From contig DASTCX010000013.1 in the NCBI GenBank assembly GCA_035710745.1, positions 62,001 to 126,000 on the forward strand: DNA of 64,000 bases, read 5' to 3'. The stretch is from Candidatus Eremiobacteraceae bacterium (GTDB taxonomy: Bacteria > Vulcanimicrobiota > Vulcanimicrobiia > Eremiobacterales > Eremiobacteraceae). A program made the position numbers and the translations under genes. Positions 39,940 through 47,497 of this stretch are shown in pieces (within the stretch, counting starts at the first letter, position 1; each line of letters begins with the position of its first letter). The notes under the pieces were generated by a model. It saw nothing but the letters and a program-made list of their open reading frames with translations. It was not told the DNA's origin and did not search any database.

Positions 39940-41103
39940 TCATTCGACGACGAGGTTCTCCAACATCGTCGCGACCGCACCGGCTGCGTGCGGGAGCGCC
40001 ATTCGCCGAGCGTTTTGCGCCATCCGCTGCATTCGGATCGGCTCCGCCAAGAGACGATCGAGTACGTCTATGAGATCGCGCGACGTCTGCGCGCGAACGC
40101 CGATGCCGCTCTCCTGCAGATATCGCGCGTTGCGCTCTTCTTGGCCGGGCAGCGGACGAAGCATGACCATCGGCAGACCCGCGGCGAGCGCTTCCGAACT
40201 CGTCAGCCCGCCGGGCTTGCTCACGAGCACGTCCGCGGCGCGCATGTAATCGTAGACGTTCGGTACGAATCCCGCGACCGTCACATCTTTTCGCATACGC
40301 CGCGCCGCATCGGCGAGCCGCTGCTCGAGCCGCGAGTTCTTGCCGACGACGACGACCGTCTGCACGTCGTGCCGCAGCGAATCGATGCGCGCCAGAGCCT
40401 TCTCGAGCGGCCCGATGCCGAGGCCGCCGCCCATGAGCAACAGCGTCGTCTTATGCGGGTCGACGCCGATCGCGCGCCGCGCTTCGGCCTTCGTCTGATG
40501 CCCGCCGAAACGGCCGTCGATCGGGATGCCCGTGACCTCGACCCGATCCGGCGTGACGCCGTGGGTGATGAGCGCCTGCCGCATCTCCGCCGTCGCGACG
40601 GCGTAGCCGTCGATGTTCCGATGGATCCAAAACGGGTGGACGACGAAATCGGTGACGATGCCGACGACCGGAGGCGCGTCGGCGAACTCGCGCTTGTATT
40701 CCGACATGACGCCGCACGGGAACGCGTGCGTGCACACGACGACATCCGGAGCGAGCGCAGAGACGTACTGGCGCAAGTTGAGCGCCGTATAGTGGTGGAG
40801 CCACGACTTGAACGCGGACACCTTCGTCGCGCGCTCGGCTTGGTCGTAGATATATTTGTACAGCTGCGGCAGCAGCTTCACCATGCCGATGTAGCCGTTG
40901 CTCGCGACGCGGTGGAAGACGTGCGATGCATACCGGTACGAGTCGACGACCTCGCTCCTCGCGTTCGGGAGTTTGTCCGCCAACGCACTGCGGACGGCGC
41001 ACGCCGCCGCGGTGTGGCCCTCTCCGACGCTTGCAGACAGGAAGAGGATGTTGCGCGTCGCCTTCGCTCTTGCGGAGCGCGCCTCGTCGACCTGGATGAC
41101 TAT
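39940..41103 (-). CDS. UgtP/MGDG-synthase-like glycosyltransferase with apparent ATA start
   Basis: 387 residues if initiated at ATA 41103. The family is GT28-type diacylglycerol glycosyltransferase, making membrane glycolipids from UDP-sugar. The conserved first block NILFLSASVGEGHTAAA (about residues 20-36) lies upstream of the only canonical start (TTG 40983), and no ATG, GTG or TTG occurs between the in-frame stop near 41235 and that TTG. ATA overlaps the DUF1292 stop TAG (ATAG) and a GGAGG sits 10 bases before it, as in ordinary coupled starts here. Later motifs: VVVCTHAFPCGVMSEY, VVGIVTDFVVHPFW, LLLMGGGLGIGPLEK, ADVLVSKPGGLTSSEALAAG. Starting at TTG would delete the N-domain Gly-rich loop. 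Confidence 0.85.
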   Translation of the reverse strand: MVIQVDEARSARAKATRNILFLSASVGEGHTAAACAVRSALADKLPNARSEVVDSYRYASHVFHRVASNGYIGMVKLLPQLYKYIYDQAERATKVSAFKSWLHHYTALNLRQYVSALAPDVVVCTHAFPCGVMSEYKREFADAPPVVGIVTDFVVHPFWIHRNIDGYAVATAEMRQALITHGVTPDRVEVTGIPIDGRFGGHQTKAEARRAIGVDPHKTTLLLMGGGLGIGPLEKALARIDSLRHDVQTVVVVGKNSRLEQRLADAARRMRKDVTVAGFVPNVYDYMRAADVLVSKPGGLTSSEALAAGLPMVMLRPLPGQEERNARYLQESGIGVRAQTSRDLIDVLDRLLAEPIRMQRMAQNARRMALPHAAGAVATMLENLVVE

Positions 41104-45575: not shown

Positions 45576-45947
45576 TCACCGCCCCGCCAGTCTCAAGAGC
45601 ACGGCGCCGCCGTACAGATAGATTCCCGCGGCGACCGCCATCAAACTCGCGATGAGCACCGCGCCGGCGCCCGCGTGTTTCGCCGCACGGGCCAGCGGAT
45701 GATCGTCCGGCTGGACGAGATCGACGATATGCTCGAGGCTCGTGTTGAACAATTCCGCGGCGAGCACGAGACCTATCGCGGCGCAGAGCACGAGCCAGTG
45801 GATCGCGTCGAAACGGAGCAGCGCAGCGAGCCCGATCGCCACGACGGCGAGCCCGAGCTGCCTTCGAAAATTCGGCTGGTCGACAAACGCTTGCCGGATC
45901 CCGTCGATCGCATCGGCGAACGCGTTCGCGAAGCTCCGTTTAGCGAT
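45576..45947 (-). CDS. dgkA: Diacylglycerol/undecaprenol kinase DgkA with apparent ATC start
   Basis: 123 residues if initiated at ATC 45947. Three-helix kinase that phosphorylates diacylglycerol or undecaprenol. The only canonical start is GTG 45842, which would delete the first 35 residues, including the amphipathic start SFANAFADAIDGIRQAF and the NFRRQL turn that open this family. No ATG, GTG or TTG lies between an upstream in-frame TAA and that GTG. GGAGG lies 6 bases before the second of two ATC codons, inside the end of ybeY. Active-site spacing E65-x2-N68-x3-E72-x3-D76 (AAELFNTSLEHIVDLV) matches E. coli E69/N72/E76/D80. The residue aligned with E. coli E28 appears to be Gln24 (DQPNFR). 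Confidence 0.85.
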   Translation of the reverse strand: MAKRSFANAFADAIDGIRQAFVDQPNFRRQLGLAVVAIGLAALLRFDAIHWLVLCAAIGLVLAAELFNTSLEHIVDLVQPDDHPLARAAKHAGAGAVLIASLMAVAAGIYLYGGAVLLRLAGR

Positions 45948-46521
45948 GATCGTCCTCCGCTGTGAGATCTCGCATTAGCCGGCGCGTCAGACCGTGCATG
46001 CGCGCCGCCTCGCGGCGCTCGTGATGGTCGTATCCGCACAGATGGAGCGTGCCGTGCACGATCAGACGCTGCATCTCTTCGATGAGCGGCGCGCCGTACG
46101 CGCGCGCTTGACGCCGCGCGGTCTCCACCGACACGACGACGTCGCCAAAAGGCTCGCCCGCGCTGAGTCCGTCGTCGACGTCGAACGACAACACATCGGT
46201 CGCGCTATCTTTGGCGCGATATCGCTTGTTCAAGCGCCGGATCTCTTTGTCACCGGTCAATATGACGGCGACCTCTCCGACGATATGCGGTGCCGCCTTC
46301 CTCAGCGTCGCGATCACCGCGGCCTTGAGCGGCTTGACGTCGATCCGCCATCTTGCCGCACCGCGCACCGCAGCAGTTGGCGTCGTCTTCGCCTTGGCGC
46401 GAGGGGAGTCGCCTTCGCGGGCACGCGGCGATTCGGGAAATACTTGCCTTCCGCCGCTGTCTTCGGCCGCTTTCGCGGCCTCAGAACGCCCGCTTAAGGC
46501 GACCCCCTCGCGCCACGGCAT
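45940..46521 (-). CDS. ybeY: Endoribonuclease YbeY, with unusual N-terminal extension
   Basis: 193 residues from ATG 46521 just after the phoH stop; 142 residues if started at GTG 46368 (VRGAARWRIDVKPLKAAV), which fits normal YbeY better. YbeY is a zinc endoribonuclease for 16S rRNA maturation and ribosome quality control. The core is complete: VAVILTGDKEIRRLNKRYRA, KDSATDVLSFDVDDG, GDVVVSVETARRQA, and the zinc motif HGTLHLCGYDHHERREAARM. The extra N-terminal 50 residues (SGRSEAAKAAEDSGG etc.) overlap an inverted repeat at 46396-46514 and have no family match. Upstream phoH, downstream dgkA with coupled translation. Confidence 0.9.
   Translation of the reverse strand: MPWREGVALSGRSEAAKAAEDSGGRQVFPESPRAREGDSPRAKAKTTPTAAVRGAARWRIDVKPLKAAVIATLRKAAPHIVGEVAVILTGDKEIRRLNKRYRAKDSATDVLSFDVDDGLSAGEPFGDVVVSVETARRQARAYGAPLIEEMQRLIVHGTLHLCGYDHHERREAARMHGLTRRLMRDLTAEDDHR
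46396..46514. repeat. 119-bp inverted repeat element in the ybeY 5' region
   Basis: Arms of about 26 bases (46396-46421 and 46489-46514) with near-perfect complementarity around GGCGCGAGGGG and GTCGCCTT, differing at three positions. The centre holds a second palindrome GGCCGC/GCGGCC near 46465-46480. Translated in the N-terminal extension of YbeY. No target duplication identified. Confidence 0.6.
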
Positions 46522-46522
46522 T

Positions 46523-47497
46523 TCAGCGATCCGCAAGCGAGTATGCCGCGATGATCGCGCGGATGAGCGGATGGCGTACGACATCTGCCTCGGTCAGTTC
46601 GACGATCGCGATGTCCTTGACGTCTAAGAATAGTTTCGCCGCGTGGACGAGACCGGAATCGTTTCGACGCACTAAGTCTATCTGCGTCACGTCACCGCAG
46701 ACGACCATGCGCGAGTTGGCGCCGATGCGAGTGAGGAACATCTTCATCTGGTCGCGCGACGCGTTCTGGGCTTCGTCCAGGACGACGAAAGCATCGGCGA
46801 GCGTGCGGCCGCGCATATACGCGAGTGGGGCGACTTCGATCTGGCCACGCTCCACCGCCCTTTCGATCGCATTCGGCTCCATGATCTCGCCCAGCGCATC
46901 GAACAGCGGACGCAAGTAGGGATCGACTTTGGCTTGGAAATCGCCCGGCAGAAAGCCGAGGTTCTCGCCCGCCTCGACGGCCGGACGCGACAGCACGATT
47001 CGCTGGACTTCGCCGGCACGCAGGGCGGCAAGCGCCATGATCACGGCGAGAAACGTCTTGCCCGTGCCAGCGGGACCGACGGCAAACGTCAGCGTGTGCG
47101 AAGTGACGGCATCGACGAATGCGCGCTGGCCGTTTGTACGCGGTCGGACCGCGCGACCGCGCCGCGTCGTCGCGAGCACGCTTCCGGTCGAGATAAATCT
47201 CGACCGCTCCCCATCTTTATCGCGCGGATCGTCGGGCGTTTGAGCGTCGTTTGTCGACATTGTTGTGACGTCGTCAGCGGTCAAGAATTCGCCCGCGTCG
47301 GCCGCGTCGATCAAACGACGCAAGATGCTCGATGCTTTGTCCGTCGCATCGCGCGCGCCCGCGATCACCAGCTCATCGCCCTCGACGTGGATCGCCGCGT
47401 TGGTCGCTCGCTCGACGGCGTGAAGCACGCCGTCGAATTCGCCGAACAGCCGTATCCGATCGTCAAGGTCGGCGATGCTGACCCGTGTCTGCGTCAC
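46523..47497 (-). CDS. phoH: PhoH-like ATPase
   Basis: 324 residues. PhoH family P-loop ATPase, thought to act with YbeY in RNA metabolism; the two genes are adjacent in many bacteria. N-terminal KH-like part (EFDGVLHAVERATNAAIHV), then a linker, then the ATPase: GPAGTGKTFLAVIMALAAL (Walker A), AFVVLDEAQNASRDQMKMFL (Walker B), and GDVTQIDLVRRNDSGLV (sensor). The linker encodes ERSRFISTGS through a GGTCGA-family palindrome (47185-47206). Stop is one base before the ybeY ATG; the start overlaps the preceding gene by 4. Confidence 0.94.
   Translation of the reverse strand: MTQTRVSIADLDDRIRLFGEFDGVLHAVERATNAAIHVEGDELVIAGARDATDKASSILRRLIDAADAGEFLTADDVTTMSTNDAQTPDDPRDKDGERSRFISTGSVLATTRRGRAVRPRTNGQRAFVDAVTSHTLTFAVGPAGTGKTFLAVIMALAALRAGEVQRIVLSRPAVEAGENLGFLPGDFQAKVDPYLRPLFDALGEIMEPNAIERAVERGQIEVAPLAYMRGRTLADAFVVLDEAQNASRDQMKMFLTRIGANSRMVVCGDVTQIDLVRRNDSGLVHAAKLFLDVKDIAIVELTEADVVRHPLIRAIIAAYSLADR
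47185..47206. repeat. Palindromic repeat, copy 6, inside the phoH reading frame
   Basis: Arms CGGTCGAGA / TCTCGACCG around TAAA; encodes part of ERSRFISTGS in the linker between the KH-like and ATPase parts of PhoH. Confidence 0.8.

Follow-up and report, generated by a model that had tools for sequence, protein, structure and literature searches.

Predicted initiation of dgkA at an AUC codon in a genus of Eremiobacteraceae, and apparent AUA, AUU or AUC starts in a nearby glycosyltransferase gene

The dgkA gene of a Candidatus Eremiobacteraceae bacterium, which encodes a prokaryotic diacylglycerol/undecaprenol kinase, and its counterpart in a second species of the same genus are probably translated from an AUC codon, a reading to which we assign a probability of about 0.8. 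The gene is located on the minus strand of the window analysed here, a stretch of 64,000 nucleotides (contig DASTCX010000013.1, positions 62,001 to 126,000) from a host genome of 2.97 Mb in 41 contigs. The proposed start is the second of two tandem ATC codons, at 45947-45945, and comparison with relatives supports the earlier proposal of AUC initiation at this codon.

The dgkA start region

The gene order on the minus strand is phoH, ybeY, dgkA, a CorC-like gene, cdd and recO, followed further down by genes for a small acidic protein and a glycosyltransferase, where the names phoH, CorC, cdd and recO were taken from reading the translations only. The endoribonuclease gene ybeY (Pfam YbeY, NCBIfam TIGR00043) occupies positions 45940..46584, the 5' limit being putative, and dgkA extends over 45576..45947, corresponding to 123 codons plus the stop when read from the AUC; its frame closes with a TGA at 45578-45576. 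Around the start, the minus-strand frame reads TAA(45977-45975) TGC GAG ATC TCA CAG CGG AGG ACG ATC ATC GCT AAA CGG AGC TTC.

The preliminary description of this region proved accurate base for base. An in-frame TAA is present close upstream, at 45977-45975, the two ATC codons are at 45950-45948 and 45947-45945, and a GGAGG motif at 45958-45954, within the 3' end of ybeY, lies six bases (ACGATC) ahead of the second ATC and three ahead of the first. The first ATG, GTG or TTG in the dgkA frame is the GTG at 45842-45840, 35 codons past the second ATC. The interval that had been given for the start corresponds to the region from the stop to this GTG, the start itself being at 45947-45945. The dgkA start overlaps the last 8 bases of ybeY, which ends with the stop TAA at 45942-45940, and the junction reads AUCGCUAA.

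Ordinary start triplets represent about 4% of the codons in a comparable gene, and a run of about 44 codons without one is not rare taken alone. It is the protein-level conservation of this stretch, together with the match to the anti-Shine-Dalgarno (anti-SD) sequence, that argues against a chance pattern. Local mRNA folding at the dgkA start (-21.1, vs a mean of -26.5 with a standard deviation of 4.8 in the surroundings) was found to be somewhat weaker but not distinctive.

Start codons and Shine-Dalgarno sequences in other genera

All eleven other genomes of the family with dgkA have an ordinary start within the same few codons. In 7 of the 11 it is located exactly on the column of the second ATC, as ATG (G004, G005, G007) or GTG (G006, G008, G011, G013), and five of these genomes, G004, G006, G007, G011 and G013, share the window's 8-base overlap of start and stop, as ATCGCTAA. 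Three further relatives (G003, G010, G012) possess an ATG or GTG one codon earlier, at the first-ATC column, and the candidates in G009 are a TTG in that column and, three codons earlier, a GTG. Since other genera place an ATG or GTG at this site, the position of the dgkA start is fixed, and the ancestral codon was probably ATG or GTG. As a separate observation, dgkA in another genus, g10 (L015, L016 and L029, in G042, G020 and G014, respectively), likewise shows no obvious ordinary start codon close to where the family N terminus begins.

The dgkA SD sequence forms a predicted duplex of -9.5 kcal/mol with ACCUCCUUA. This is the second strongest value in the family, with ten relatives between 0.4 and -7.7 kcal/mol and G013 at -11.4; the anti-SD sequence behind all these energies is an assumed one, as opposed to one read from the host 16S rRNA. 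A search of the host assembly for 16S rRNA gave no match, in a setting where the control search was positive in just 9 of 14 genomes. An anti-SD match as good as that of dgkA is present at 5.7% of the first starts sampled in the host genome and at 0.8% of mid-gene positions. An SD of this strength would fit a role in making up for a weak start codon, and the same argument has been made for the AUU and AUA starts of S. aureus (PMC13009471).

The 6-base spacing and the alignment with the starts of the relatives make the second ATC most likely the preferred codon of the two. Initiation at a neighbouring codon, namely, the first ATC (45950-45948) or the ACG at 45953, would draw on the use of the first-ATC column in three relatives and on the known ability of ACG to act as a weak start codon. 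However, the GGAGG would then be at a spacing of 3 or 0 bases, respectively, too short for good initiation, and most relatives begin at the second-ATC column, so that we consider a shifted start improbable.

Comparison with a congeneric genome

The sample for the genus consists of two genomes, those of the host and of G001, a different species; both are fragmented and probably metagenomic assemblies, and few substitutions separate them. G001 contains the 19 bases GGAGGACGATCATCGCTAA, identical to the window, which means that conservation cannot separate the two adjacent ATC codons. In its dgkA frame, the first ordinary start after the upstream TGA is a GTG that follows the second ATC by 52 codons. 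Three of the nine codons preceding the ATC are changed between the two genomes, and all three changes are non-synonymous in the dgkA frame. The 35 codons from the ATC to GTG 45842 contain seven differences, six at third positions, one at a first position and none at second positions (binomial p 0.007 for the third-position share, vs an expectation of 1/3), and the six third-position differences are silent. Across the whole gene, 19 of the 24 base differences are at third positions (p about 5e-6 vs an even spread), and the two proteins are 95% identical.

Ahead of the ATC, the dgkA frame is thus not conserved as protein, which argues against a synthesis of DgkA as a YbeY-DgkA fusion through a +1 frameshift at the 3' end of ybeY. 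The dgkA frame is indeed +1 relative to that of ybeY, and the two frames overlap by 35 bases, but no recognisable slippery site is present at CGC UAA, and the ybeY and dgkA genes of the relatives are separate, with ordinary starts at the same place. Frameshifting would also leave the SD unexplained, and we regard it as very unlikely. Long open frames had raised the possibility of YbeY-DgkA fusions in the class, but this was rejected because the two genes have separate starts in the sequences.

A shortened DgkA that begins at GTG 45842, the earliest ordinary start in the window's dgkA frame, is hardly more credible. This codon is GTC in G001, in which the next ordinary start would drop 52 residues, and a protein begun at GTG 45842 would lack both the N-terminal helix and a portion of the first membrane helix. 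DgkA matches Pfam DAGK_prokar (PF01219) with 105 bits over positions 3-101 of the 102 of the profile, of which the GTG start would cost 24 positions and 25 bits. The earlier claim that the approximately 35 residues lost in this way match the family N terminus was borne out: this stretch, including SFANAFADAIDGIR and QAFVDQPNFR, is conserved in the family, and its coding-type substitutions relative to G001 point to purifying selection.

An ATG at the same position in orthologues had been named in the preliminary description as a sign of a sequencing error. Other genera do have ATG or GTG there, and the host genome is a fragmented assembly, but the only congeneric genome keeps the ATC. The identical ATC in the separate G001 assembly, from a different species that differs at 24 sites in dgkA, argues for a real lineage-specific change and makes a sequencing or assembly error that turned ATG or GTG into ATC extremely unlikely.

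DgkA is related to the E. coli DgkA structures, and among the residues that are catalytic in the E. coli enzyme, the equivalents of Glu69, Asn72, Glu76 and Lys94 are retained in the alignment. The position of E. coli Glu28 is occupied by Gln in most of this genome family (Glu in G007) and that of Asp95 by His throughout the family. Both residues are important in E. coli DgkA, and the activity or substrate of DgkA in this family may differ from those in E. coli. These two replacements and the missing ordinary start would fit a gene decaying after the loss of its start, but the third-position bias, the intact frame in both species, the retained strong SD and the same replacements in relatives with ordinary starts leave decay with next to no likelihood.

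A model for initiation at AUC

We infer initiation at the AUC, its coupling to ybeY and a sensitivity to initiation factor IF3 from the arrangement of the sequence. Ribosomes finishing ybeY at the UAA at 45942-45940, or fresh 30S subunits, would be held by the GGAGG at 45958-45954. With ybeY ending only a few bases away, and with a strong SD, the 30S subunit would have time to accept the AUC, and the initiator tRNA would then initiate on this codon, resulting in a DgkA of 123 residues whose N terminus is the one usual in the family. A point against this model is that E. coli initiates poorly at AUC. The change from ATG or GTG to ATC may have been tolerated, or selected, because the SD is strong and the site would be coupled to ybeY; we lean slightly towards drift buffered by coupling over selection for low DgkA. 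A low yield of DgkA per message would be expected, one that may fall as IF3 rises, because IF3 discriminates against such start codons (PMC5472188) and excess IF3 reduces re-initiation (PMC2268962). An autoregulation of the infC type, brought up in the preliminary description, does not follow for dgkA.

infC, the initiator tRNA and other genes

The infC gene, which encodes IF3, starts at AUU in E. coli. Judged by N-terminal alignment, the infC start codon is ATT in the host (L044, G000:C4:16210-16710) and in all family members read (loci L036-L049), and ATA in G014 and G015, two members of a neighbouring family.

The initiator tRNA is present in the genus and is split by a group I intron. It keeps the anticodon CAU, and there is hence no indication of altered decoding. 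An initiator tRNA with an altered anticodon (GAU) reading AUC was considered and rejected, the two GAU-like hits (L062 and L121) not being tRNAs. The interruption is in the anticodon region and was found at L278 (G000:C3:181267-181610, minus strand), G001:C33:18731-19457 and G010:C75:2438-2802. The group I intron corresponds to a match to Rfam RF00028 in G000, the genome on which this search was run. The insert in G001 is longer and contains a possible ORF, and the initiator tRNA of most other relatives is uninterrupted. Another observation on tRNA genes is a dense array of about 16 low-scoring ones at L101 (G000:C3:20700-23100) that resembles the tRNA arrays of phages or mobile elements.

A scan for other genes with missing starts covered a sample of about 460 kb, in which most high scorers look antisense and were discarded by eye. 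A response regulator/HD-domain gene at position 1506 of L129 (minus strand; G000:C13 about 147506) has no ordinary start before residue 34, which may be explained by an ATA 6 nt past GAGGTGA or by a nearby GTG put out of frame by a one-base error. The N termini of a GT4 glycosyltransferase (L140, position 1138, plus strand) and a membrane protein (L134, position 5646, minus strand) seemingly originate from the CTG in a CTGA stop/start overlap.

A glycosyltransferase with apparent AUA, AUU or AUC starts

Scanning for genes without ordinary starts also led to a glycosyltransferase gene at 39940..41103 (minus strand), 4.8 kb downstream of dgkA and in the same gene cluster. Its product belongs to the MGDG synthase family (Pfam MGDG_synth), and the nearest NCBIfam model is that of diglucosyl diacylglycerol synthase (PRK13609-like), with a score far below the cut-off. 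In the window, the start ATA at 41103-41101 overlaps the upstream stop TAG at 41102-41100. The start column contains ATA in 11 of the 13 genomes of the family and ATC in a twelfth. The ATA either shares bases with the upstream stop, as ATA(G), or is located directly after an in-frame stop, and a GGAGG or a shorter SD is present upstream. The start is followed by conserved A-L-Q residues, whose codons differ silently among several genera.

Elsewhere in the class, one fixed column, located three codons ahead of a conserved LFLSA motif, contains ATT in 23 and ATC in 12 copies, together 35 of 62, and ATG or GTG in four. No ordinary start is present within 25 codons, or back to an in-frame stop, in 44 of the 62, and an in-frame stop immediately precedes the ATT or ATC in at least three copies (G078, G056, G033). 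These adjacent in-frame stops argue against frameshifting, as does the fact that the upstream stop is not in a constant position with respect to the start frame. The five readable copies from other classes of the phylum possess an ATG or GTG nearby. A GTG is present downstream in several family members (column -1 and others), which may use another start or make a second, shorter product.

As far as sequences can tell, the case for functional AUH starts (AUU, AUC or AUA) is made more strongly by this conservation across the class than by dgkA alone, and we lean slightly towards selection as the reason for those of the glycosyltransferase. The AUU-type start of infC and the apparent AUA, AUU and AUC starts of the glycosyltransferase in this lineage support the proposed AUC start of dgkA.

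Significance and comparison with known systems

Gene finders that assume ATG, GTG or TTG would trim 35 residues off DgkA and misplace the start of the glycosyltransferase in dozens of genomes. A literature search, for which most subscription journals were outside reach, gave no report of an AUH start for Eremiobacterota, for dgkA or for such a glycosyltransferase. Initiation at AUU, AUC or AUA is an established, rare kind that includes the infC genes of many bacteria, and its occurrence in dgkA and in the Eremiobacterota lineage appears to be new. Documented bacterial AUC, AUU and AUA starts outside infC are few, and here two genes in one cluster are concerned, one of them class-wide.

It is conceivable, if rather doubtful, that dgkA (AUC in this genus) and the glycosyltransferase (AUA, AUU or AUC across the class) form a small IF3-sensitive regulon in Eremiobacteria that is tuned together with infC (AUU or AUA) by initiation fidelity. 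If so, it would comprise two membrane-lipid genes in one cluster, both acting on diacylglycerol-type lipids. These genes represent a natural data set for asking if selection maintains weak start codons and if the dosage of membrane-lipid enzymes is set by the IF3 level.

Clear parallels exist with characterized systems. Starts of infC are AUC in Streptomyces (PMC5472188) and AUA in S. aureus (PMC13009471), and infC and the proposed dgkA start share the AUH codon class against which IF3 discriminates; infC regulates itself via its own product, whereas the dgkA product is not a translation factor. Another example is Streptomyces sigR, of which the GTC start is repressed by IF3 and coupled to a neighbour (PMC5472188). 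Like the one proposed for dgkA, this start is non-standard, lies in an ordinary operon gene and is translationally coupled, but the sigR case was shown experimentally and involves the downstream rsrA, whereas for the dgkA AUC the coupling is predicted and involves the upstream ybeY. In S. aureus, cvfC1 starts at AUU and ccpN at AUA (PMC13009471); these genes resemble the case proposed for dgkA in having a conserved AUH start and a strong or extended SD outside infC. Their starts, with no AUC among them, were shown by retapamulin ribosome profiling and reporters, whereas that of dgkA is predicted from its sequence. Finally, re-initiation at an overlapping stop/start within polycistronic mRNAs (PMC2268962) places a start near an upstream stop, as in dgkA, and is cut by excess IF3; that case is a reporter, whereas the proposed start codon of dgkA is non-standard.
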